Of a stretch of 64,000 nt of DNA, positions 1 through 10,866 are shown piece after piece. The stretch is from an uncultured Prevotellaceae bacterium. GTDB lineage: Bacteria; Bacteroidota; Bacteroidia; Bacteroidales; Muribaculaceae. Under the pieces are notes generated by a model that had not been told where the DNA came from, ran no database searches, and saw only the letters and a program-made list of their open reading frames with translations. The first letter of the stretch is position 1, and each line of letters starts with the position of its first letter. A program made the translations under genes and the position numbers. The DNA is taken from the NCBI GenBank assembly GCA_900318335.1, contig ONKF01000009.1, positions 17,869 to 81,868 of the forward strand, read 5' to 3'.

Positions 1-788
1 CGCACTTTCAACTTTGTGAAGAACAAGCTGAAGTAAACCGAGGAAATCATTATAAACGGTGAGTTGTAAAGGAACAATTTACCATTGTGGTGCCATAGTG
101 AAGGTGCCACATGGGCTGCCACCATCACCACAATTGGAGTCAGAATCGAAATAGCCAGATAGATGAGCATATCCCATTTCTTGTCCAGTGAGAACCACTT
201 GCAGCCATGCACCCTGATATACCTCGCTATCAGGTAGATGACCATGAAATGCAGCAACGAATACCCCCCGTCAAAAAGCAGGTAATCGACAAACCAGCCA
301 AAGATGAGGTCGAGGGCAATAAAAAACCATATTGTCCTGCGCGCCACAACCTTAGTGGCATTATCGATAAAGGTATTCAGTATCGGAGACAACAGGTACA
401 GGGCGATATAACAAGCCAGGAACCAATAATCAAAGAAATTGGAATGGGCGATAAACCCCTTTATATCAAAGGGTATTATGCCCGCAGCGCAGAATGAGAA
501 ATAGAGCAGGAAGCTATAAAAAAGAATCTGGAACAACAAGTTTGCAAAGCCCTTGACCGATTGCCTGATAGAGAACCATCCCGAGATGAAAACGAAGCAA
601 TTCACACAGACGATGGCAAAAGACTCGACCAGATACTGGCCCGAAGCCTTGAGAAATTCAGTCCTGCAGAAGTCGAGTGACGGTTCTCCCAGCGCCCAGA
701 AGTCGGTATGGACCAGGACCACCATTGCCATGGCAATAATCCTGAGCAATTCCACTCCCGATAGCCTCGTTTCCCTTGATGTACCCAT
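1..788 (-). CDS. Acyltransferase family 3 membrane protein (partial, C-terminus outside window)
   Basis: The gene reads leftwards off the window edge, so only about 262 residues are visible. The start is the ATG at 788; an in-frame TGA lies just upstream. The N-terminus reads RLSGVELLRIIAMAMVVLVH, the usual opening of family 3 acyltransferases, with the conserved His in the first membrane helix, followed by several further hydrophobic helices. Such inner-membrane enzymes O-acetylate or otherwise acylate sugars of surface polysaccharides. It lies 42 nt after the PP-loop gene and downstream of a flippase, so it probably modifies the glycan made by this operon. The substrate is unknown. Confidence 0.85.
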   Translation of the reverse strand, partial: MGTSRETRLSGVELLRIIAMAMVVLVHTDFWALGEPSLDFCRTEFLKASGQYLVESFAIVCVNCFVFISGWFSIRQSVKGFANLLFQILFYSFLLYFSFCAAGIIPFDIKGFIAHSNFFDYWFLACYIALYLLSPILNTFIDNATKVVARRTIWFFIALDLIFGWFVDYLLFDGGYSLLHFMVIYLIARYIRVHGCKWFSLDKKWDMLIYLAISILTPIVVMVAAHVAPSLWHHNGKLFLYNSPFIMISSVYFSLFFTKLKV

Positions 789-830: not shown

Positions 831-2054
831 TCACTGTACCGGATAAGGGCTACGGCTTGAAGTATTGCGGCGCAGAATCCACTTGGCCACCTTCTTAATC
901 GCAGCCATGATGATGTGGGGCGACTCGTGCAGCCACGCCGCAAGATAAGACGGCATCGGATAGTTCATCCGCTTAGCCAACTCATAATTATCGTTGGCAT
1001 AGATGTCGCTCTTGCGGTGCAGGACGGTAAAACACTTGTAGGCATAGCTCTGAGCGTAATACTTCTCCTTATCAAATATCTCACTGAAATCGTCAATCCG
1101 ACCAAAGATTTCAAGCGCCAGCAGGGTGCGTTTACACTTGTGGCAAACTGAGCAATTATTGGCGGTCGTGATGTCTCCCACACACACGTTCAGATGCCTC
1201 TGCATTACCGGGTAATCGAGCAAGCGTTGCGTCTTGTCGCTACGACGGAATTGGGCACCGTCAGAAATCACCTCAAGCGTCTCGGTGCCGAGCATCATCT
1301 CGTTGCACAGGTCGGTCACCGAACCATAGTCCAATTTGGTGAGATGGGTAATTTCCCAGTAGGAGTAGTCATAGGCCGTGTAGTATTTATCCAACACCTT
1401 CTCAAAAACCAGAATGCCAGTGGCGCGGCACAGCATACCAGCGTTGTACTCCCATTCATATTGGTAAAAGTCAAACAGGTTGGAGTCCATCGGCACAAAC
1501 GGCAATCCCAATTCTTGGGCACAAGGCAAGAGGAAGTCATAGCGTGTGTGGAATTTCCGCCTGGCTTTCTCAGTGCCTCCGCCATGAGAGCCCACGTTAA
1601 AGAAAAACAGAGCCGACAGTTTGTAATCGGGTTTCTCCTCGTTGACAAACCTGTCAAATAACGTGGAAAAAGCATCAATTCCTGCCGAGAAGCCTGTGCC
1701 GACAAGGTGATTGGTCTTGACTGTGTTGGCAAATCCCGCTACCTCGACTTTCACTTCATGCAATTCGGGCAGGAACGCCCTTTCACATGGCTGCACGTAG
1801 TGGGTGACGTTGTCATAGAGTTTCTCGCTGACGCAGCCCTCCACCTTGATATCATGCCCGTAGAACATGGCAGGGAACAACATGGCCACAAGGAATGCAT
1901 CGTAAACGTCATCGGTCAGCCAGTCGCTAAATTGCACTGGCACCGAGAACCATAATTGCTTACTCTGCGAGAATGGACAGTCCACGTCACACACTATGCG
2001 ATACTCCTGTGATTCAGGCAGATGTTCTTTCCTTAAATTAGAAACCCGTATCAT
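831..2054 (-). CDS. QueC-like PP-loop protein in a polysaccharide operon (function unknown)
   Basis: A 407-residue soluble protein that I cannot assign to a named family. Residues about 118-131 (LVGTGFSAGIDAFS) look like a PP-loop (SGGxDS-type) pyrophosphatase loop. Residues C291, C301, C304 and C307 form a C-x9-C-x2-C-x2-C cluster very like the zinc site of QueC. This suggests an ATP-dependent enzyme that adenylates a carboxylate, for example to make an amide or nitrile, but that is inference. The ATG overlaps the stop of the upstream flippase gene (ATGA), implying translational coupling. Together with the acyltransferase this suggests a role in modifying a surface glycan or its precursor. 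Confidence 0.6.
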   Translation of the reverse strand: MIRVSNLRKEHLPESQEYRIVCDVDCPFSQSKQLWFSVPVQFSDWLTDDVYDAFLVAMLFPAMFYGHDIKVEGCVSEKLYDNVTHYVQPCERAFLPELHEVKVEVAGFANTVKTNHLVGTGFSAGIDAFSTLFDRFVNEEKPDYKLSALFFFNVGSHGGGTEKARRKFHTRYDFLLPCAQELGLPFVPMDSNLFDFYQYEWEYNAGMLCRATGILVFEKVLDKYYTAYDYSYWEITHLTKLDYGSVTDLCNEMMLGTETLEVISDGAQFRRSDKTQRLLDYPVMQRHLNVCVGDITTANNCSVCHKCKRTLLALEIFGRIDDFSEIFDKEKYYAQSYAYKCFTVLHRKSDIYANDNYELAKRMNYPMPSYLAAWLHESPHIIMAAIKKVAKWILRRNTSSRSPYPVQ

Positions 2055-3589
2055 GACTTTTTAAGATGTAATCTCTCAACAATGATGTTTTTAATAAACT
2101 GCCGCTCGGGAACGGTCATGCCGGCTTTCCAGATAAACGGCAGTACCAGTGCCTCAAAGGCGATTGTAAAGGCTATCAACTTCAAGAAGGTGTCATTCCC
2201 GACAAACAACAGATAGACCAATGAAATCAGACAGCCAAAAACCAGAATGGGTATAATCCTTGTCACAAACATCCTGAAGTAACGCTTGATGTCGAAATCA
2301 AGCAGTTTCTTGCTCTGATGAATCAACAGCACCACGACAAAGAACTTGAACAAAATGGCCAATACAAATACCGACTCTGGCGCCATACCCATTTTCAGCG
2401 CCAAGTAAGAGCAGATGACATTCAAGAAATACAAGATGGTGAGCACGACCTCATAGGTCTTGATCTTGCTCGTGGCCAACACTGCCGTATAGAGCGGAGT
2501 GGTGAAACAATCTATGAAGGTATAAACAAGGATCAGGTTGGCAAAGTTCACCGCATGGTCAGGCACCTCGACGAGCCACACGTCAAGCAGGGTGCGCGTG
2601 TTGTTGATGAGCGGGAATATCAGGATGACCGTCAAGAAGAACGAGAACTTGGTGCTCTTGACAAGCAGGTCGTTCAAGCGGCCCACCTCATCAGAGGCAT
2701 AGGACTTGGTAATCTGTGGCTGGACCGCGGTCATGAATCCGCTGATGAAGCGGGTCACCACGCCATTGACCTGCATAGCCACGCCCTGGGCAGCATTGAC
2801 TACTGGGCCGAAGAAGATGTTCAGCAGCATCACGACACCCTCGTCCTTGAGCACCACAGCGGCATTGCCGATGAAAGTCCAACCCACAAACATGGAGATT
2901 TCCTTCACTATCTTTCGGTCGAGGGCAGGACGCGCCTTGCACTCGGGGAACTTGACCGCACAGTAGAAGAAATAGATCGCTTGATATATCACACTGGTGA
3001 TGAATCCCAGGATTGAATAAAACACGAGTTTATCAATGGGCGAGATATAGAGCAGGACGACGATGAGCAGCTTGATGACGACATCGAGGATGCTCAAATA
3101 GGCAAAAGTCGTCATCTTCTCGTGGGAAATCACCGACGCGCCATAGGGTACCGCAAACAGCGAGAGCGAGAAGCAGGCAATTGAGCAATGCAGCGCCCAT
3201 TGGGCCGCGTGCATGCGCTCGGCAGGGATATTCAACTTGGTGTTGAGGAACCACATCGCCAGTATCTCACAGATAATGAACATGGCGATTGCAAGCAGGA
3301 TGTGGATAGCGCTGACGGTGGCAAACGTCTTCTTCAACTGGGCAAAGTCGCCGCGTCCCAACTCATAGGTCAAGTAACGGCTCGTGGAAACCGACAGGGA
3401 ACCCGACAGGATAGTGAACATGCCCACAAGTCCTCCGACCACGCTATAGATGCCATAATCAACAACGCCCAGCACGGCAAGCACCAGTCGGCTCGTGTAG
3501 AGCGTGACGAGCATGACCACAATCATGCGGATGTAAAGCATGACTGTGTTCTTGGCAATGCGTCGGTTACTGCTCTGTTGCCCCTCCAT
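2051..3589 (-). CDS. Polysaccharide flippase (Wzx/MATE-like)
   Basis: A 512-residue polytopic inner-membrane protein with about 12-14 hydrophobic helices and the N-terminal pattern of oligosaccharide flippases (RIAKNTVMLYIRMIVVMLVT, then SRLVLAVLG and DYGIYSVVGG). Members of this superfamily export lipid-linked oligosaccharide units for O-antigen, capsule or exopolysaccharide. It is the first gene of a minus-strand operon, with a strong promoter match upstream at 3623-3653. Its stop overlaps the start of the next gene by 4 nt. The family is clear; the glycan is not. Confidence 0.9.
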   Translation of the reverse strand: MEGQQSSNRRIAKNTVMLYIRMIVVMLVTLYTSRLVLAVLGVVDYGIYSVVGGLVGMFTILSGSLSVSTSRYLTYELGRGDFAQLKKTFATVSAIHILLAIAMFIICEILAMWFLNTKLNIPAERMHAAQWALHCSIACFSLSLFAVPYGASVISHEKMTTFAYLSILDVVIKLLIVVLLYISPIDKLVFYSILGFITSVIYQAIYFFYCAVKFPECKARPALDRKIVKEISMFVGWTFIGNAAVVLKDEGVVMLLNIFFGPVVNAAQGVAMQVNGVVTRFISGFMTAVQPQITKSYASDEVGRLNDLLVKSTKFSFFLTVILIFPLINNTRTLLDVWLVEVPDHAVNFANLILVYTFIDCFTTPLYTAVLATSKIKTYEVVLTILYFLNVICSYLALKMGMAPESVFVLAILFKFFVVVLLIHQSKKLLDFDIKRYFRMFVTRIIPILVFGCLISLVYLLFVGNDTFLKLIAFTIAFEALVLPFIWKAGMTVPERQFIKNIIVERLHLKKS

Positions 3590-3745: not shown

Positions 3746-3777
3746 TTTGGCTGTAACAGGAAAAATGACTAAGTTTG
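3746..3777 (+). promoter_or_regulatory. Promoter of the WG-repeat lipoprotein gene
   Basis: TTTG (3746-3749), 20 nt, TAAGTTTG (3770-3777). It excludes the TTG codon at 3775 as a start and points to the ATGs at 3793 or 3805. Confidence 0.7.
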
Positions 3778-3792
3778 CACCCTCAAAACAAC

Positions 3793-5322
3793 ATGATTCA
3801 AGAAATGAAGATTATTGCTCAGATTGCACTTGCCGCGATTGTGGCATTGCTGATGACCGCCTGTGGCGGCAACGATACAACTTACCAGTACAAGACGCAA
3901 TATCTGCCCGTGCAACTCGTGGGCAGTGAGAAGTGGAGCATCCTCGACATCAACTCGGGCGAGGTGGTCGCCAAGGATGCGTTTGACAATGCACCGTCGC
4001 CTGTTGTTGACGGCATGTTCTATGTGAAGAACAACGAGGGGAGTTACGACTACTATGACGTGAGTGCTCCCACCCAGCCCGTGGCTGGCCACTATGGCAG
4101 CGTGACCTCCTTCAGCGACGACGGCGTGGCCGTCGCCAGCCGTGTGGGCGGTTCGTTGTGCGTCATCAACCGCAAGGGCGAGGTTGTCAAGGAGTTGCCC
4201 AAGGACGTGTCACAGTGCTCAATGTTTGCCCGTGGCATGGCTGCATTCCAGAACGACAACGGCTCGTGGGGCTTTATCAACGCAAGCGGCGACACGATTG
4301 TGCCCGCCAATTACAATAGCGTGAACCTGTTCCTGTATGACGACTATGCTGTGGTCATCGATGCCGTCCAGCCAAGCGACAGCATCCTGAACTTCAGTGT
4401 CATCAACAAGAGCGGTAAGGTGATGTTCACCGCTGCCAGCAACGAGTACCAGCCTGTGCAGCCTTACTTCATCAACGGAGTCCTGCCCGTCATCAAGGGT
4501 GACACGATCGTGTGCCTCAACCCGGACGGCAAGGAGGTGCCCAACCCCATCGACGACAAGCAGAAGGTTGAGAAAGGCGGATATGCCGATTTCTCCCGCA
4601 CTCCGTCAGGTGACTATATTGTTTTTAAGGACAAGAAAACCGGATTGGTGGACAAGGCAAACAATGTGCTCATTCCCATCGAGCACGACAACCTTATCGA
4701 CATCAATGGTGACCGCCTGATTGCTGTTGACGGCGACACCTACCACATCGTGGACCGCAACGGTAAGGCCGTTGGCAACGCCAAGTTCAACGATGCCCAC
4801 GTGAGTGAGGACAACCCCTATGCCGCACGTGGCTTCATTGACACCGACCTTGCTGCAGCAGCCATGATGATGATGTTTGACGAAACCAACTGCTGCGGTG
4901 CTACTGCTACCACCACGCTCATGGACATGAACGGGATGGTGGGTACCGACGCCCGCATGTATGTCGGCAACAACACCCTGATGTTGCCCCAGGGACCCTA
5001 CATGATTCAATATGTGTTTGATCGCGAAGTTGCATCGGCCAATGCCGACAGCACCAGCGCCGAGTTCAACTACGACGCACGCGTGAAATGTGTCATCATG
5101 TCGCTCAACGTCAAGCACTGCCCGTCGAGCACCGAGCCCGCCATCGTCAACAAGGTGGAGAGCCGTCTGGGCACCAAGGGGTTTGTCCTTGCGAGAGACG
5201 GCATCTTCTGCAGCGATTACCAGACGGCCATGACTCTGGGCTACGACAAGGGTATCGTCAACGCCATCTACTACATGCGCTTCAACGAGTCTGTTCCTCA
5301 AAGCAAGAACAAGAGAAACTAA
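3793..5322 (+). CDS. WG-repeat lipoprotein
   Basis: A secreted lipoprotein of about 509 residues. The lipobox LMTAC-GG follows a hydrophobic stretch. The body is made of WG/KWG-type repeats of about 40-50 residues (segments such as SEKWSILDIN, GSWGFINASGD, KKTGLVDKANN). These form beta-rich, probably propeller-like domains of unknown role on the cell surface or in the periplasm. The promoter at 3746-3777 favours the ATG at 3793, with 3805 (MKII) as an alternative. It is followed by queD after a 69-nt spacer that consists mostly of a dispersed repeat, so co-transcription with queDE is possible. Confidence 0.8.
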   Translation: MIQEMKIIAQIALAAIVALLMTACGGNDTTYQYKTQYLPVQLVGSEKWSILDINSGEVVAKDAFDNAPSPVVDGMFYVKNNEGSYDYYDVSAPTQPVAGHYGSVTSFSDDGVAVASRVGGSLCVINRKGEVVKELPKDVSQCSMFARGMAAFQNDNGSWGFINASGDTIVPANYNSVNLFLYDDYAVVIDAVQPSDSILNFSVINKSGKVMFTAASNEYQPVQPYFINGVLPVIKGDTIVCLNPDGKEVPNPIDDKQKVEKGGYADFSRTPSGDYIVFKDKKTGLVDKANNVLIPIEHDNLIDINGDRLIAVDGDTYHIVDRNGKAVGNAKFNDAHVSEDNPYAARGFIDTDLAAAAMMMMFDETNCCGATATTTLMDMNGMVGTDARMYVGNNTLMLPQGPYMIQYVFDREVASANADSTSAEFNYDARVKCVIMSLNVKHCPSSTEPAIVNKVESRLGTKGFVLARDGIFCSDYQTAMTLGYDKGIVNAIYYMRFNESVPQSKNKRN

Positions 5323-5391: not shown

Positions 5392-5727
5392 ATGTATTAC
5401 GTACAAAAGACACTCGAGATTTCATCGGCCCACATGCTGTACCTCGACCATAACAGCAAGTGTGAGAATCTGCATGGCCACAACTGGATTGTGAACGTCT
5501 ATTGCAAGGCCGAAGAGTTGGACGACAATGGCATGGTCACCGATTTCACTATTATCAAGGAGATGGTGCATGGCAAACTTGACCACCGCAACCTGAACGA
5601 GGTGCTTGACTTCAATCCCACGGCCGAGAACATTGCCCGTTGGATCGTCGATACCATCCCCAACTGCTACCGCGCCGACGTGCGCGAAAGCGCCAACAAC
5701 CTGGCCATCTACATCAAGGACGAATAG
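5392..5727 (+). CDS. queD: 6-carboxytetrahydropterin synthase QueD
   Basis: A 111-residue cytoplasmic enzyme of the 6-pyruvoyltetrahydropterin synthase fold. It converts dihydroneopterin triphosphate to 6-carboxytetrahydropterin, an early step to preQ0 and queuosine. The zinc ligands H14, H28 and H30 (SSAHML and LHGHNW) and the catalytic C24 (KCENLHGH) are visible. The length is typical of the short QueD type. queE follows after a 57-nt spacer, and queC and queF lie a few kilobases away on the other strand. Confidence 0.95.
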   Translation: MYYVQKTLEISSAHMLYLDHNSKCENLHGHNWIVNVYCKAEELDDNGMVTDFTIIKEMVHGKLDHRNLNEVLDFNPTAENIARWIVDTIPNCYRADVRESANNLAIYIKDE

Positions 5728-5784
5728 GAGTTAGGAGTTAGGAGTTGGCATCCGCCAACTTGGGACTAAGGACTAAAAACTAGG
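5728..5784 (+). repeat. Low-complexity spacer with tandem GGAGTTA units and a small hairpin
   Basis: Three tandem GGAGTTA-like units are followed by the 6-bp hairpin GTTGGC-ATCC-GCCAAC and then by GGACTAAGGACTAA repeats. It is the whole queD-queE spacer. The hairpin loop region contains CATCCGCC, the reverse of the GGCGGATG core of the dispersed repeat. Confidence 0.5.
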
Positions 5785-6375
5785 ATGTACAAAGTCAACG
5801 AGATCTTCCAGTCGCTGCAAGGTGAGGGCTATAACACAGGAACCGCCAGCGTGTTCATCAGGCTGAGCGGCTGCAACCTGCGTTGCTCTTTCTGTGACAC
5901 ACGGCACGAGGAAGGCACGATGATGTCACTGCCCGAAATCGTGGAAGAGGTCATGCAATATCCACTTGCACCGCTCATCGTGCTCACGGGCGGTGAGCCG
6001 TCGTTGTGGATTGATGAGGATTTTGTGTCGGGGCTCAAACAGATGACAGGCAAACGCATTGCCATCGAGACCAACGGCACCCATTCCCTGCCAAGCAACC
6101 TCGACTGGGTAACATTTTCTCCAAAAACAGGCCTCGGCAACAGCGGCAACATTCCTGTGGTGCTCACCCATTGTGACGAACTCAAGGTGGTGTATTTGGG
6201 ACAAGACTTGTCACAGTATGACAGCATTCAAACTAATCACCGCTACCTGCAACCTTGCTGGGTGAGCGATGAGAATCAACGCTTCAACAACATGCGGGCC
6301 ACAGTCCAGGCTGTCCTAGAAAACCCCCAGTGGCGGCTCTCGCTCCAAACTCACCGCATCCTAGGCATCCAGTAA
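5785..6375 (+). CDS. queE: 7-carboxy-7-deazaguanine synthase QueE
   Basis: A 196-residue radical SAM enzyme that rearranges 6-carboxytetrahydropterin to 7-carboxy-7-deazaguanine. The [4Fe-4S] ligands are C30, C34 and C37 (CNLRCSFC, the usual CX3CX2C). An N-terminal FQSLQGEG and LTGGEPSLW (GGEP motif) are also present. It works directly after QueD and before QueC. The bidirectional terminator at 6394-6436 ends this plus-strand unit. Confidence 0.95.
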   Translation: MYKVNEIFQSLQGEGYNTGTASVFIRLSGCNLRCSFCDTRHEEGTMMSLPEIVEEVMQYPLAPLIVLTGGEPSLWIDEDFVSGLKQMTGKRIAIETNGTHSLPSNLDWVTFSPKTGLGNSGNIPVVLTHCDELKVVYLGQDLSQYDSIQTNHRYLQPCWVSDENQRFNNMRATVQAVLENPQWRLSLQTHRILGIQ

Positions 6376-6393
6376 AGATATCAGAGAAAAAAG

Positions 6394-6436
6394 AAGAGTT
6401 AATAGTTCTCGGAGATGATTCCGGCTATTAACTCTT
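6394..6436. terminator. Bidirectional terminator between queE and the toxin gene
   Basis: A perfect 12-bp inverted repeat (AAGAGTTAATAG at 6394-6405 and its complement at 6425-6436). It has a T-rich flank on both strands, TTTTATTT on plus and CTTTTTTCTC on minus, and sits between convergent genes. Confidence 0.8.
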
Positions 6437-6712
6437 TTATTTGTCGTTATAATGACCGTAAGAGGTAAGTATCAGCACCAAGACCTCATCTTCAAAGATG
6501 CGATAAATCATTCTGTGCTTCTTGGTGATTTCACGACTCCAGCGGCCCTCGGGCTTTCCCTTCAATGGTTCAGGATGCCCAGTCCCTGTCTTAGGGTGTT
6601 CACGCAACTCGTCAATAAAACGCAATGCTTTCTTAAAAGCCTTAGGTTCGCTCTTAGCAAGACGGGCCAACCCCTCATTGGCTAAATCGGTAAACCTCAG
6701 TTCATACATCAT
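6437..6712 (-). CDS. yoeB: YoeB/Txe-family mRNA interferase toxin
   Basis: A 91-residue RelE-fold toxin that cleaves mRNA at the ribosome. It matches YoeB along its length: HPEPLKG, GRWSREITKKHRMIYRI and the C-terminal SYGHYNDK. The catalytic residues E48, R67 and H87 correspond to those of YoeB. The ATG at 6712 lies inside the end of the antitoxin gene, so the two genes overlap by about 11 nt, with the antitoxin first, as usual for this family. A GTG six bases further upstream is a less likely start. Confidence 0.85.
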   Translation of the reverse strand: MMYELRFTDLANEGLARLAKSEPKAFKKALRFIDELREHPKTGTGHPEPLKGKPEGRWSREITKKHRMIYRIFEDEVLVLILTSYGHYNDK

Positions 6713-6962
6713 ACCCACTTCTCTTAAGCATGTCTTCCACAGATTCGCCAGGCTTCAAAGTCGTAAATTGCCCTTGACGATATTGTTCTTCGGCCTCTTC
6801 AACACGTGAAAAGAACTCTTCTTCGGTCATCAAGGTTGTGTCTTTCTGTTTCTCGGCAACAACGCGACGCAGATATTTGGCCACACGCTTGAGCAGATTC
6901 TCATCTTCAGCAACAATACTCAAATTGCGGAGCACTTCAGCATTTAATTCAGCAGTAGTCAT
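6702..6962 (-). CDS. Antitoxin partner of the YoeB-like toxin
   Basis: An 86-residue acidic, helical protein encoded directly upstream of and overlapping the toxin. Its C-terminal part (EEAEEQYRQGQFTTLKPGESVEDMLKRSG) has the look of an extended antitoxin tail that wraps the toxin. I do not recognise a clear Phd/YefM signature at the N-terminus. The assignment rests on position, size and charge. TA pairs usually repress their own promoter; a strong promoter match lies at 6985-7016. Confidence 0.8.
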   Translation of the reverse strand: MTTAELNAEVLRNLSIVAEDENLLKRVAKYLRRVVAEKQKDTTLMTEEEFFSRVEEAEEQYRQGQFTTLKPGESVEDMLKRSGYDV

Positions 6963-6984
6963 AATCTTAGTATTTTATTGAGTG

Positions 6985-7016
6985 CAAAGATATGTTTTCT
7001 TTCTGAAAAATGCAAA
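6985..7016 (-). promoter_or_regulatory. Promoter of the toxin-antitoxin operon
   Basis: On the minus strand TTTG (7016-7013), exactly 20 nt, TATCTTTG (6992-6985). The antitoxin ATG is 22 nt downstream. Confidence 0.75.
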
Positions 7017-7167
7017 AACCAAGCCATAAACCTTGACACATGCACTGCCAACAACGCTAATCAATCCCTTCCGCTAAACTACAAGCGTAATTATGGATTC
7101 CATTCATTTCATTCTCTTTAGTACAATTTGAATGAAATCAACAAACGAAAAACTCCCACATCATCGC

Positions 7168-7212
7168 AAAGAAACATCCGCACTCCCTCGATTGGAATGC
7201 GGATGTTTCTTT
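7168..7212. terminator. Perfect 15-bp inverted repeat downstream of fabD
   Basis: AAAGAAACATCCGCA (7168-7182) and its exact complement (7198-7212) enclose a 15-nt loop. On the minus strand it ends in TTTCTTT and lies 38 nt beyond the fabD stop, so it probably terminates fabD. The right arm is also the start of dispersed repeat copy B. Confidence 0.65.
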
Positions 7213-7245
7213 AACCTTTAAACTCTAAACTGCGAGCGCAGCGAG
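7198..7245 (+). repeat. Dispersed intergenic repeat, copy B
   Basis: GCGGATGTTTCTTTAACC is followed by TTTAAACT units and GCGAGCGCAGCGAG, the same order of elements as copy C at 10872-10915. It abuts the fabD stop codon in antisense orientation. Confidence 0.6.
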
Positions 7246-7249
7246 CATA

Positions 7250-8128
7250 TTACTGACGACCCGAGAGGACGACGTCGCGGCTGGTCTTGGCGATAAGGCC
7301 TTGCAGCACCTTGCCGGGACCCAGTTCCTCGGCTTCGGTCATGCCGTCGGCTACCATGTTGGCAACGATGTGGCTCCAACGTACGGGAGCGGTGAGCTGT
7401 TGCAGCAGGTTGGCCTTGATTTCGGCAGGATCGGTGTGGGGCTTAGCGTCCACGTCCTGATAGATGGGGCAAACGGGAGCCGAGAAGTCAGCAGCCTCGA
7501 TAGCCTCGGCCAGTTCGGCACGGGCGGGCTCCATTAGGGGCGAGTGGAAAGCGCCACCCACCTTGAGGGGCAACGCGCGGCGAGCGCCAGCCTCCTTGAA
7601 TTTCTCACAAGCGGCCTCGATAGCGGCAATCTCACCCGAGATGACCACCTGACCGGGGCAGTTATAGTTGGCAGGAACACAGATGCCATCGATCGAGGCA
7701 CAGATTTCCTCCACCTTAGCATCGTCCATACCGATGATGGCAGCCATCGTCGAGGGAGCGGCCTCACAAGCCTTCTGCATGGCCAGGGCACGTGCCTCGA
7801 CCAATTTCAAGCCCTGCTCAAAGGGCAGTGCGCCAGCAGCCACCAGTGCCGAGAATTCACCCAGCGAGTGTCCAGCCACCATGTCGGGCTTGAACTCATC
7901 ACCCATCGTGAGGGCGAGAATTACTGAATGCAGGAATACGGCGGGCTGAGTGACCTTGGTCTGCTTCAGGTCGTCCTCGGTGCCTTCAAACATGAGATCT
8001 GTGATGCGGAAACCCAGCACCTCATTGGCTTTTTCAAACAATTCTTTGGCCTGAGGGTTGTTGTCATACAGTTCCTTGCCCATACCGACAAACTGTGCGC
8101 CCTGACCAGGGAATACGAATGCTTTCAT
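7250..8128 (-). CDS. fabD: Malonyl-CoA:ACP transacylase FabD
   Basis: A 292-residue cytoplasmic enzyme that moves malonyl from CoA to acyl carrier protein for fatty acid synthesis. It shows the N-terminal FPGQGAQFVGMG, the nucleophile S88 in GHSLGE, and the catalytic His in GGAFHSPLM near residue 195. The length is typical. It stands alone, not in a fab cluster, with its own -7 box at 8179-8186. Confidence 0.97.
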   Translation of the reverse strand: MKAFVFPGQGAQFVGMGKELYDNNPQAKELFEKANEVLGFRITDLMFEGTEDDLKQTKVTQPAVFLHSVILALTMGDEFKPDMVAGHSLGEFSALVAAGALPFEQGLKLVEARALAMQKACEAAPSTMAAIIGMDDAKVEEICASIDGICVPANYNCPGQVVISGEIAAIEAACEKFKEAGARRALPLKVGGAFHSPLMEPARAELAEAIEAADFSAPVCPIYQDVDAKPHTDPAEIKANLLQQLTAPVRWSHIVANMVADGMTEAEELGPGKVLQGLIAKTSRDVVLSGRQ

Positions 8129-8178
8129 TGTCTTGTTATTTTAGTAGTTAATGATGTTTCTTTATCTCAAAACGGCTG

Positions 8179-8186
8179 CAAAGATA
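8179..8186 (-). promoter_or_regulatory. -7 box upstream of fabD
   Basis: TATCTTTG on the minus strand, 50 nt before the ATG. No clear -33 TTG is visible. Confidence 0.5.
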
Positions 8187-8195
8187 ATCATTTTT

Positions 8196-8314
8196 AGTGA
8201 ATAGTGAACAGTTAATAGAGAATAGTTTAATCAACTAACCAGCAAAAACAACACAATTAATTGATTATCAGCCAACTATCAACTATTATCTATTAACTCT
8301 TAACTATTAACTAT
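8196..8314. repeat. AT-rich imperfect inverted repeat between fabD and queC
   Basis: GTTAATAGAGAATAGTT (8211-8227) matches 16 of 17 bases of the complement of 8281-8297. The flanks are tandem TTAACTATTAACT-like units. It lies directly after the queC stop and may act as its terminator. Confidence 0.5.
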
Positions 8315-8970
8315 GCCAAGTATTCCGTAGTGTCGTCAATGCCGGCATCCCGCAAGGCTTGACGCCTCTCGGTGCAGGTGCCGCAGGTGCCACAATGCTT
8401 CTCGCCGCCCTTGTAACAGGAGTAGGTCTCGCTGTAGTCCAGCCCCAGGGCCGCACCGTGGCGGGCGATGTCGGCTTTGGTCAAGTCGGTATAGGGGGCA
8501 TAAACCTTAACGCCCTCGTAGGTACCCGTCATCATCGCAGTGCTCATCGCCTCGATAAAAGGTGAGCGGCAGTCGGGATAGATGGAATGGTCCCCCGCAT
8601 GATTGGCAATCATGACACGCCTCAGGCCGTTGCTCTCGGCAATGCCGCAGGCGATAGCCAGCATGATGCCGTTGCGGAAGGGCACCACCGTCGATTTCAT
8701 GTTCTCGTCATTATAGTTGCCATCGGGGATAGCGTCGGCACTCTCGAGCAAGGCGCTCTTGAAGTATTTGTGCATGAAATCCAGAGGAATTATCAGGTGC
8801 TTGATGCCCAAGCGCTTACAGTGCATGATGGCACAACGGCGCTCACGGCCGTTCTGGGTGCTACCGTAGTCAAAGGTGATAGCCAAGGCAATCTCGTCCT
8901 TGTACTCATAGAGCATGGTCGTCGAGTCCATGCCGCCAGATGTGATAATAACAGCGTCTTTCTTAGCCAT
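8311..8970 (-). CDS. queC: 7-cyano-7-deazaguanine synthase QueC
   Basis: A 219-residue ATP-dependent enzyme that turns 7-carboxy-7-deazaguanine into preQ0. The PP-loop is TSGGMDSTT (residues 10-18). The zinc site near the C-terminus is CYKGGEKHCGTCGTC. The start at 8970 (MAKKDAVIIT) places the PP-loop at the usual position and avoids overlap with queF. The gene starts 7 nt after the queF stop, so queF and queC form an operon. Confidence 0.96.
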   Translation of the reverse strand: MAKKDAVIITSGGMDSTTMLYEYKDEIALAITFDYGSTQNGRERRCAIMHCKRLGIKHLIIPLDFMHKYFKSALLESADAIPDGNYNDENMKSTVVPFRNGIMLAIACGIAESNGLRRVMIANHAGDHSIYPDCRSPFIEAMSTAMMTGTYEGVKVYAPYTDLTKADIARHGAALGLDYSETYSCYKGGEKHCGTCGTCTERRQALRDAGIDDTTEYLA

Positions 8971-8977
8971 GGTTATC

Positions 8978-9448
8978 TCAATCGTTATGGAAGTTGCTGA
9001 TAAGGCGCATGCGCACCATGTCCTGATGGTCGCTGTCGCCATAGTTGGCAAACGGCTTGATGCTGATGCCACCGCGCGGGTTGAACAGGCCGATAACCTC
9101 AAGGTACTTGGGATCCATCAACTTGACCAGGTCTTTCATGATGATATTCACACAATCCTCATGGAAGTCACCATGGTTGCGGAAACTGAACAGGTAGAGT
9201 TTCAGGCTCTTGCTCTCGACCATGCGCACGCGGGGGATATAATTGATAATGATGTGACCGAAGTCGGGCTGACCCGTCTTGGGGCACAGCGAGGTGAACT
9301 CGGGACAATCGAGCGTCACCACATATTCATTCTCGGGGTGCTTGTTCTCGAAGGTCTCAAGCACGTCGGGACGGTAGTCAAACTCATATTGCGTGCCCTG
9401 GTTGCCCAACAGGGTCACGCCCTCGAGTTCTTTATCACTTCTTGACAT
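8978..9448 (-). CDS. queF: NADPH-dependent 7-cyano-7-deazaguanine reductase QueF (type I)
   Basis: A 156-residue enzyme that reduces preQ0 to preQ1, the base inserted into tRNA. The catalytic C55 and D62 ([12 protein letters not shown]) fall at the positions known for the short type I enzymes. The QueF motif [20 protein letters not shown] follows. The start MSRSDKEL at 9448 gives the typical length; an in-frame extension upstream crosses the promoter. It is first in an operon with queC. Confidence 0.96.
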
Positions 9449-9479
9449 AAATCTACTGTTTTTTACGTTATTAGGACTG

Positions 9480-9487
9480 CAAAGGTA
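9480..9487 (-). promoter_or_regulatory. -7 box upstream of queF-queC
   Basis: TACCTTTG on the minus strand, 31 nt before the queF ATG. The -33 element is not clear. Confidence 0.5.
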
Positions 9488-9529
9488 GTAAAAAAAACGC
9501 ACTCACGAGCCATCTTATGAACGCCAGGC

Positions 9530-10237
9530 TCACTTGAGCAGCAAGTCGAGGGCAAATCGGGCTGCCTCATTGCCCTGTGGCTGCAACCGGTCGAGGCTCT
9601 GTAATCCCGCCAGTCGCACTTGCTCGTCAATGTCATCACTGCAGTTGGTGAGCAGGTGACGGCTGTAAGCGACGGTGAACTCGGGATGCCCCTGGAAAGT
9701 GATGACCTGGGTGCCCATCCTGAATGACTCGTTCTCGCAGAAGTCGCTGATGGCGCAACGCGTGGCACCCTGTGGGAGCCTCATCACCTGGTCATGATGG
9801 CTATAGAGCAGGTGCATCTTTCCTTGTGGGAAATAGGGTTTCATCTCATCGTCAAGGACACGTGAAGCCCTGATTCCGGTTCCGAAGCCGCCATCATACT
9901 TACTCACTTCTCCGCCCAATGCCCGTGCAATCAACTGATGCCCAAAGCACACGCCCATCATTTTCGCTCCACGGCTATAGGCTTTTTCAATCCACTGCAT
10001 CAGAGCCACAATCCAAGGCTTGTCATCATAAGCCGAATCGAGGCTGCCTGGAATGATGTAAAGTTCTCCGCTATTGATTTCGGCAGGCAATTCCCCTTGC
10101 CACGACTGGAAAACACGATAGCTTGCCTGCTCGCCGACTGCAGCGAACAAATCAAAAAACAAGGACTCGTAATTGGGGATAAACGACGGCAGGCGCCCCG
10201 GGAATGTGTCACACAACAATATGTTGATGCGGGTCAT
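9530..10237 (-). CDS. Class I glutamine amidotransferase-like protein
   Basis: A 235-residue protein with the complete glutaminase triad of class I amidotransferases: C97 in GVCFGHQ, and H184 and E186 in FQGHPEF. It resembles the GMP-synthase-like free-standing amidotransferases. Some members act on glutamyl conjugates rather than supplying ammonia, so the substrate is open. Its ATG overlaps the stop of the HD gene (ATGA), so the two are translationally coupled. Confidence 0.85.
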   Translation of the reverse strand: MTRINILLCDTFPGRLPSFIPNYESLFFDLFAAVGEQASYRVFQSWQGELPAEINSGELYIIPGSLDSAYDDKPWIVALMQWIEKAYSRGAKMMGVCFGHQLIARALGGEVSKYDGGFGTGIRASRVLDDEMKPYFPQGKMHLLYSHHDQVMRLPQGATRCAISDFCENESFRMGTQVITFQGHPEFTVAYSRHLLTNCSDDIDEQVRLAGLQSLDRLQPQGNEAARFALDLLLK

Positions 10238-10866
10238 AATTCGTCGATTTCCTCACCGGTGCGCTCCATGATGCTGGCAGCCAGACCGTCGGCAGTCTGG
10301 ATGATGGTCACAAGGGGATAAAGCTTGCGGGCCGCGTCATAGTTGCGCACGTCCTCATAGCTGTTCTGGTTCACGCCCCATGCGCCCATGTGCCAGCGGA
10401 TGGCCAGCATCTCGTCATCATTGAGAGCCAGTCCACTGCACAGCAGCAGCGTGAGCGATTTCTCGCCATGACCCATCGGGAAACTCTTGTAGGTGATTTT
10501 ATAGCCCTCGGCATCTTCCCAAATGCCAAGCGCGTTCTTGCGTTTCTTGACCGAGCGCTTGTAGATGTCACACTTGCACACGTCGTGCAACAGGCTGGCC
10601 AGGATGATGCTGTCGCGCTTCACCTCATGCTCCAGGCTGGGTTCAATAGCCTTCATCGCTTCCCACACGGCAAGCGCGGCCTTACATGTATTGAGCGAGT
10701 GCTTAGCCAAGCCGCCCTCGGTATTCAGGTGGTGTCCTGCCGAAGCCGGGGCAGTGAAAAATCCCCACTCCTCCAGATCACCTATCACGTCCTCGAGACC
10801 GTCACGCCCTGTCGAACGCAACAACTCGAGTATTTCTTCTTTACAATCCTTATTACTGGTTTTCAT
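10234..10866 (-). CDS. HD-domain phosphohydrolase-like protein
   Basis: A 210-residue soluble protein. H56 (GLAKHSLNT), H94-D95 (SLLHDVCK) and later HGEKS, IRWHMG and a C-terminal QTADGLA make a plausible HD metal site. HD proteins hydrolyse phosphate esters of nucleotides or other small molecules; the substrate cannot be told. The start at 10866 is preferred because upstream in-frame codons lie in a dispersed repeat and in the preceding gene. It is coupled to the amidotransferase downstream. Confidence 0.75.
   Translation of the reverse strand: MKTSNKDCKEEILELLRSTGRDGLEDVIGDLEEWGFFTAPASAGHHLNTEGGLAKHSLNTCKAALAVWEAMKAIEPSLEHEVKRDSIILASLLHDVCKCDIYKRSVKKRKNALGIWEDAEGYKITYKSFPMGHGEKSLTLLLCSGLALNDDEMLAIRWHMGAWGVNQNSYEDVRNYDAARKLYPLVTIIQTADGLAASIMERTGEEIDEL

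Follow-up and report, generated by a model that had tools for sequence, protein, structure and literature searches.

A QueC-like PP-loop protein family found in many surface-glycan loci and its candidate role in glycan assembly

PP-loop enzymes split ATP into AMP and pyrophosphate (PPi), activating a carbonyl or carboxyl oxygen that is then replaced by a nitrogen or sulfur nucleophile. QueC-like proteins have been linked with the synthesis of 7-deazaguanine and, in recent work, with the modification of proteins during defence against phages. In the portions of the work of Libby and colleagues drawn on here (PMC13329287), canonical QueC (PF06508; 3bl5 in Bacillus subtilis) is defined by the motifs YxQxHxxE, VPxRN and YPDC, and clusters are described for QatC, Cap9, LarE, WbpG and GMP synthetase, together with one linked to PfkB-type genes. 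QatC (9y01; NF041925) belongs to the qatABCD phage defence system and Cap9 (9nto) to type IV CBASS. Excerpts from Gao and colleagues (PMC13279940) state that Cap9 joins a deazaguanine to a protein, that the Tyr and Asp by which it recognises the deazaguanine have counterparts in QueC, with Thr at that place in QatC, and that a S156A/S161A double mutant of QatC abolishes defence. A further group, the NASAT enzymes (WbpG, WbuX and LpNASAT), comprises PP-loop proteins with a zinc tetracysteine site that act in LPS synthesis, as set out in part of PMC10607449.

Here we describe a gene of an uncultured Prevotellaceae bacterium whose product resembles these proteins; it lies in a stretch of 64,000 nucleotides that was analysed as a whole and is called the window below (Table 1). 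On the evidence of predicted structures, profile alignments and gene neighbourhoods, the best explanation is that the protein belongs to an unnamed branch of the QueC/PP-loop ATP-pyrophosphatases that serves surface-glycan assembly.

Table 1. Features of the window gene, its protein, the surrounding locus and the related loci with an adjoining polysaccharide pyruvyl transferase (PSPT) gene
Feature	Position	Strand	Remarks
QueC-like PP-loop and tetracysteine protein	831..2054	minus	407 aa, ATG start
N-terminal extension, about residues 1-112, beta strands and helices, absent from QueC	1719..2054	minus	secondary structure from AlphaFold model
PP-loop-like SAGIDA, residues 123-128	1671..1688	minus	S/T123, G125, D127 in 31/31 members
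Conserved basic pair R271-xx-K274	1233..1244	minus	R271 in 31/31; position 274 Lys in 26/31, Arg in 5/31
Tetracysteine C291 to C307, probable zinc site	1134..1184	minus	four Cys and N300 in 31/31; aligns with QueC cluster
C-terminal helical extension, about residues 320-400	855..1097	minus	AlphaFold model
Polysaccharide flippase (MatE, PF01554), upstream	2051..3589	minus	ATGA overlap with QueC-like gene
Acyltransferase 3 (PF01757), downstream	3..788	minus	runs past window edge; whole in L013 17631-18656
MenD-like ThDP enzyme of glycan cassette	L013 15000-16745		G000:C34, left of window
Large protein, weak WG-repeat match	3775-5322
Queuosine-precursor cluster: queD-like (PF01242), queE-like (radical SAM), fabD-like ORF, queC, queF (PF14489)	5392-9502
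True queC	8311-8970		219 aa; PF06508 195.8 bits, cut-off 22
PSPT as immediate neighbour	L011, L012, L019, L033, L034, L037, L038, L039, L040, L041

The window protein and its PP-loop core

A sequence-only reading of this DNA had proposed that the protein pairs a PP-loop-like GFSAGIDAF segment with a C-x9-C-x2-C-x2-C cluster, that it is nearly twice as long as QueC, that its gene is coupled to that of a flippase, and that the true queC lies elsewhere in the window. All of this was borne out. The two motifs are present, the first as GTGFSAGIDAFST and off-consensus (SAGIDA against SGGxDS), the second as C291-x9-C301-x2-C304-x2-C307, and [ST]xGxD and the four cysteines are conserved in 31/31 aligned relatives; the protein is 1.86 times the length of QueC (407 against 219 aa); at the gene junction, which reads GTCATGATACG on the minus strand, the flippase stop TGA and the ATG of the QueC-like gene share ATGA; and the gene named as queC matches PF06508 far above the cut-off (Table 1). 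The PP-loop alone is little proof, because a loose [ST]xGxD arises in 12.6% of 20,000 residue shuffles of the window protein; C-x(6-30)-C-x2-C-x2-C arises in 0.33% of such shuffles and both motifs together in 0.055%. Judged from the alignment, motif conservation across all 31 relatives is stronger evidence than a PP-loop in one protein.

No Pfam family, that of QueC included, matched the window protein at E-values up to 10, and a PF06508 search of its own genome at E <= 0.01 did not recover it; its lone NCBIfam match was to quinate/shikimate dehydrogenase, at E 0.21 and far under the cut-off. Among family members PF06508 matched weakly in 2/11 (best E 0.013), and a Priestia copy reached 16.6 bits against the cut-off of 22. 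DUF6395 (PF19932) likewise gave weak matches in 2/11 members and one Priestia copy, and was found in 0/61 genomes and 0/14 controls. A single-sequence search of the PDB returned one match, Cas6b (E 0.084); profile searches returned weak matches around the PP-loop, mainly to GMP synthetase, TilS and MnmA.

An AlphaFold model of the window protein, built on a 13-row alignment (pLDDT 88.9, pTM 0.85), predicts a Rossmann-like PP-loop core between N- and C-terminal extensions. In Foldseek its sole PDB match at E <= 0.001 was QatC (E 1.3e-4, probability 1.00; TM 0.38 and 0.37, rmsd 6.9), followed by TilS and NcsA, with Cap9 in sixth place (E 0.06, probability 0.82). The first seven matches among viral-protein structures were 7-cyano-7-deazaguanine synthases, all predicted viral proteins (probability 0.97 to 1.00), of which the first alone reached E <= 0.001. 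The model of a second member, L040, which is 18% identical to the window protein (10 rows; pLDDT 85.1), gave B. subtilis QueC as its top PDB match (probability 1.00, E 9e-3, TM 0.61 on QueC), with zero matches at E 0.001 and with epimerases and other Rossmann folds in its list. The TM-scores are modest (at most 0.38 on the query and up to 0.61 on the target) and several of the E-values are weak. Structure prediction and fold search nonetheless gave a QueC-type core with a Rossmann-like PP-loop domain, as the sequence-only reading had anticipated, and no homologue of known, unrelated function came to light.

Profile comparisons point in the same direction. With hhalign, the alignment of 31 members matched that of 16 QueC proteins at 94.7% (score 61.5; best of 40 column shuffles 21.1), and a set of 17 members did so at 93.0% (score 56.3; best of 30 shuffles 24.2), with the PP-loop and the cysteine cluster in register with those of QueC in both comparisons. 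Against seven QatC proteins the match was partial only: 34% over 28 columns in a first comparison (score 38.4; best of 30 shuffles 24.1) and 56% over 109 columns for the larger set (score 42.7; best of 40 shuffles 20.8), the QueC and QatC profiles themselves matching at 97%. By sequence the family therefore stands closer to QueC; by layout the window model comes closest to QatC. That the predicted core of the window protein belongs to the QueC/PP-loop superfamily is well supported by these models and alignments, and the Cx(n)CxxCxxC pattern occurs in 31/31 members.

Distribution of the family and its conserved sites

The family has a broad yet sparse distribution. The same genome (3.15 Mb, 70 contigs) carries a second copy on another contig, sharing 54% identity with the window protein. 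With the single protein as query, relatives were found in 7/101 genomes of related organisms, the genome of origin included (E <= 1e-5); an 11-row alignment found them in 3/395 genomes of the phylum and 5/393 of the order (E <= 1e-8). Plasmid records added relatives from Paracoccus, Azospirillum, Gloeothece, Nostoc, Gemmobacter, Priestia, Pseudobutyrivibrio and haloarchaea, so that the aligned proteins come from Bacteroidota, Pseudomonadota, Cyanobacteriota, Bacillota and haloarchaea; the viral contigs and phage records searched held no relative. In all plasmid matches listed the relatives are annotated as 'hypothetical protein', one match also naming an overlapping acyltransferase. Thirty-two loci longer than 9 kb were searched for ORFs that fit the family profile (E <= 1e-10); the 33 rows obtained were reduced to 31 members from 30 loci by removal of L021 and L023 as duplicates of L015 and L016; further Azospirillum, Haloterrigena, Natronorubrum and Priestia records lie outside this set. 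The congener G037 also holds a more distant family copy (31%), away from its WG/que locus. A 558-aa Paracoccus protein was considered as a PSPT fusion, its N-terminus looking PSPT-like by eye, and was rejected, since no HMM matched and comparison of the profiles reached 0.3%.

The motif [ST]xGxD, R271, N300 and the four cysteines are kept in 31/31 members, and N192, G155 and K306 in 30/31. The exact SGGxDS occurs in 10/31 members, and the window protein lacks it. Position 128 is Ser in 20/31, Ala in 10/31 (the window clade, L014, L040, L041, L082 and L088) and Thr in 1/31. The Ala that replaces the last Ser of SGGxDS in the window clade (A128) counts against our preferred reading of an active enzyme, and it could mean that the window protein is catalytically dead and serves as a binding partner or scaffold for the flippase or a neighbouring enzyme; the loss of defence in the QatC double mutant lends this some weight. 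We nevertheless consider a dead protein improbable: the window protein keeps S123, G125, D127, R271 and the cysteines, Ala at 128 is found in further branches, and dN against its relative L015 is 0.097, though dS is saturated at 2.0 in that pair. Across the dN/dS comparisons dS was at least 2.0 or not computable, which makes the sign of constraint weak. The member at L019 (~9438-10452, G068:C31) is a 266-aa piece following two in-frame stops and adjoins a PSPT gene; it is perhaps decaying or mis-assembled.

VPxRN is found in 0/31 members and 15/16 QueC proteins and YPDC in 0/31 and 16/16; YxQxHxxE is found in 0/31 members but does not discriminate, being found in 0/16 of the QueC control set as well. 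Because VPxRN and YPDC are missing from every member, preQ0 synthesis is unlikely, and so, as far as these residues can tell, is a deazaguanine substrate. The family thus shares with QueC the core fold, the PP-loop and a cysteine cluster in register, and differs in length, in these motifs and in the glycan setting of many members; Cap9 shares the QueC core, but it is far shorter (~185 aa) and retains the QueC motifs, in the portions of PMC13329287 drawn on here. By motif and neighbours, no cluster described in those portions fits the family; three small archaeal clusters lie outside the analysis given there.

One alternative is a NASAT-like enzyme, in which a separate superfamily branch would transfer ammonia to a sugar N-acetyl group at the expense of ATP, giving an acetamidino sugar. 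The family resembles NASAT in its PP-loop, its tetracysteine site (zinc-binding in NASAT, predicted to be so in the family) and its surface-polysaccharide setting (PMC10607449, in part, for NASAT). However, the NASAT cysteine pattern given there, CxxC-xn-[GN]xCxxC, occurs in 0/31 members, the Pfam and NCBIfam amidotransferase models matched none of the members scanned, and NASAT is missing among the 50 PDB matches listed for the window model; we regard this alternative as unlikely.

It is far less likely still that the window protein serves in defence as QatC and Cap9 do, modifying a partner protein and standing in a glycan locus by chance. QatC is its best PDB match and has a similar three-part layout, with a QueC core between N- and C-terminal extensions, at a similar length of ~400 aa. 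Yet T-x-T-x-HP, present in 7/7 QatC proteins, occurs in 0/31 members ([ST]HP is found in 11/31 members, 7/7 QatC and 0/16 QueC). PADLOC reported nothing for the window protein and single weak matches only among 17 members (JAB 0.0015, QueC 0.014, QatC 0.071); the NCBIfam QatC model (NF041925) matched one of 17 members at E 0.054 and did not match the window protein; and among the neighbours of the window gene, as named by Pfam, similarity or eye, none was recognised as qatA, qatB or qatD.

Gene neighbourhoods

The window operon runs from the flippase through the QueC-like gene, acyltransferase 3, an SDR and the MenD-like ThDP enzyme to groES and groEL (the gro genes named by eye). At 148 to 150 bits, the MenD-like protein stays under the menD cut-off of 244.2; contig C46 of the same genome carries a menD that passes it (323 bits). 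On the other side stand the gene with the weak WG-repeat match (the WG gene), found in 39/41 genomes of the genus searched, and the que cluster, whose order is similar in several congeners. Six congeners were compared at the WG/que locus, with genes labelled by similarity to window ORFs, and the cassette was seen in 0/6. Two (G036, G037) have groEL, groES, the WG gene, queD, queE, fabD and queC in order without the cassette, and in G006 groES directly adjoins the WG gene without it (groEL being unlabelled there); the WG gene of G024, G025 and G033 has different neighbours, in a stretch that did not include groES. The cassette is a variable insertion. In the four nearest relatives of the window gene (L015, L016, L017, L022) the flippase again adjoins, and the sets of SDR, acyltransferase and ThDP genes vary.

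These comparisons bear on the idea that the protein acts on 7-deazaguanine, whether by making preQ0 alongside QueC or by attaching deazaguanine to a glycan, with the nearby que genes as suppliers. Genes for queD-like, queE-like, queC and queF products do lie within 8 kb of the window gene, and there is the precedent of deazaguanine-to-protein joining by Cap9 (PMC13279940, in part). Because three congeners share the groES/que locus without the cassette, the nearness is positional and says little on function, and a functional link of the window gene to the queuosine genes is unsupported; no que gene was seen by eye in the 20 kb listed for the locus of the second copy. With the family's lack of YPDC and VPxRN, this is the least probable alternative of all.

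The second copy lies among two flippases, glycosyltransferases and EptA-like and FrhB-like proteins, with a PSPT gene three genes off. A PSPT gene is the immediate neighbour in 10/30 loci (Table 1; L011 and L038 share a genus, as do L012 and L039) and lies within three genes in 13/30, adding L014, L082 and L087; at L033 and L040 it overlaps the family gene by four bases. It was not seen in 17/30, the window's own clade included: the window and its nearest relatives L015, L016, L017 and L022, L010, L018, L020, L032, L035, L036, L088 and five haloarchaeal loci, these five and L088 being judged from record annotation alone, which is incomplete and includes several hypothetical proteins. Eleven family-bearing genomes hold 13 PSPT genes (in 10/11 genomes) and 231 GT2 genes; the PSPT genes have at most 26 flanking genes, which makes 26/231 an upper bound for the rate in a GT2 control. 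At that rate, PSPT beside 4/12 family genes has a probability of 0.038, and beside 4/8 outside the window clade of 0.008. The association is support, not proof, since PSPT was chosen post hoc and the statistic ignores kinship.

ATP-grasp genes stand beside members in L018, L034 and L036 and PGA_cap genes in L020 and L040, neighbours that fit ligase chemistry. At L018 (10875-12101, G037:C3) the ATP-grasp protein directly adjoins the member and weakly matches LAL_C2, the L-amino acid ligase C-terminal domain (22.6 bits, cut-off 29.4). On the Pseudobutyrivibrio plasmid pNP95 (L082 5992-10698) the member is followed by a radical SAM protein, a PSPT that the annotation gives as two pieces and an FrhB-like protein, a set resembling the PSPT-FrhB set of the second copy. 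The 50-kb Priestia plasmid pG5.MM8 carries two tandem family copies after a PSPT gene (L037 8224-10828), as well as galU, glycosyltransferase and spore coat protein genes.

Among the five Natrialbaceae copies, four have a polysaccharide deacetylase gene close by; near the fifth, in Halomontanus, are a flippase and a glycoside hydrolase. Not every homologue lies in a glycan locus: no glycan gene was recognised at the Paracoccus and G172 (L032) loci, insertion sequences surround one Nostoc copy, and the PSPT and family gene pair of Azospirillum stands amid unrelated genes, PSPT being the sole glycan-type neighbour. A surface-glycan setting for many family members is well supported.

Proposed chemistry and its meaning

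The sequence-only reading had suggested an ATP-dependent amide- or nitrile-forming step on a surface glycan or its precursor. An ATP-dependent glycan step is in keeping with the QueC-type core and the setting of many homologues; nothing specific points to a nitrile, because VPxRN and YPDC occur in 0/31 members. We give an even chance to the reading in which the protein serves surface-glycan assembly as an ATP-dependent, AMP-forming ligase or amidase whose target is a carboxyl or acyl group on a glycan precursor. The QueC-like protein would bind ATP at its PP-loop; the carboxyl (or an acyl or carbonyl oxygen) of a sugar precursor or substituent would be adenylated with release of PPi; and ammonia or an amine would displace AMP, leaving an amide or perhaps an amidine. 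The substrate would presumably be a cytosolic glycan precursor, modified before the flippase exports the unit.

The best hint to the substrate comes from PSPT: going by the name of its family, it would add a carboxylate derived from pyruvate, the obvious substrate candidate at loci where PSPT is a neighbour; in the window cassette, which lacks PSPT, one may speculate that the MenD-like ThDP enzyme supplies an acyl or carboxylate group. A more specific proposal is that QueC-derived ligases, often paired with PSPT, activate glycan carboxylates such as pyruvate ketals with ATP and convert them to amides with ammonia or amines; we advance it tentatively, as rather doubtful in this form. Neither the QueC-like family in glycan loci nor such a glycan modification and enzyme class is described in the open-licence PMC literature that was searched (subscription journals lay outside its scope).

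Surveys built on PF06508 would miss the family, because the members scanned escape that model and the plasmid matches listed are named 'hypothetical protein'. If our preferred reading is true, the family brings the QueC scaffold into the assembly of surface glycans in bacteria, and perhaps in archaea; and if its chemistry is amidation, it would offer an enzyme, open to testing, for modifications that neutralise charge on capsules and O-antigens.
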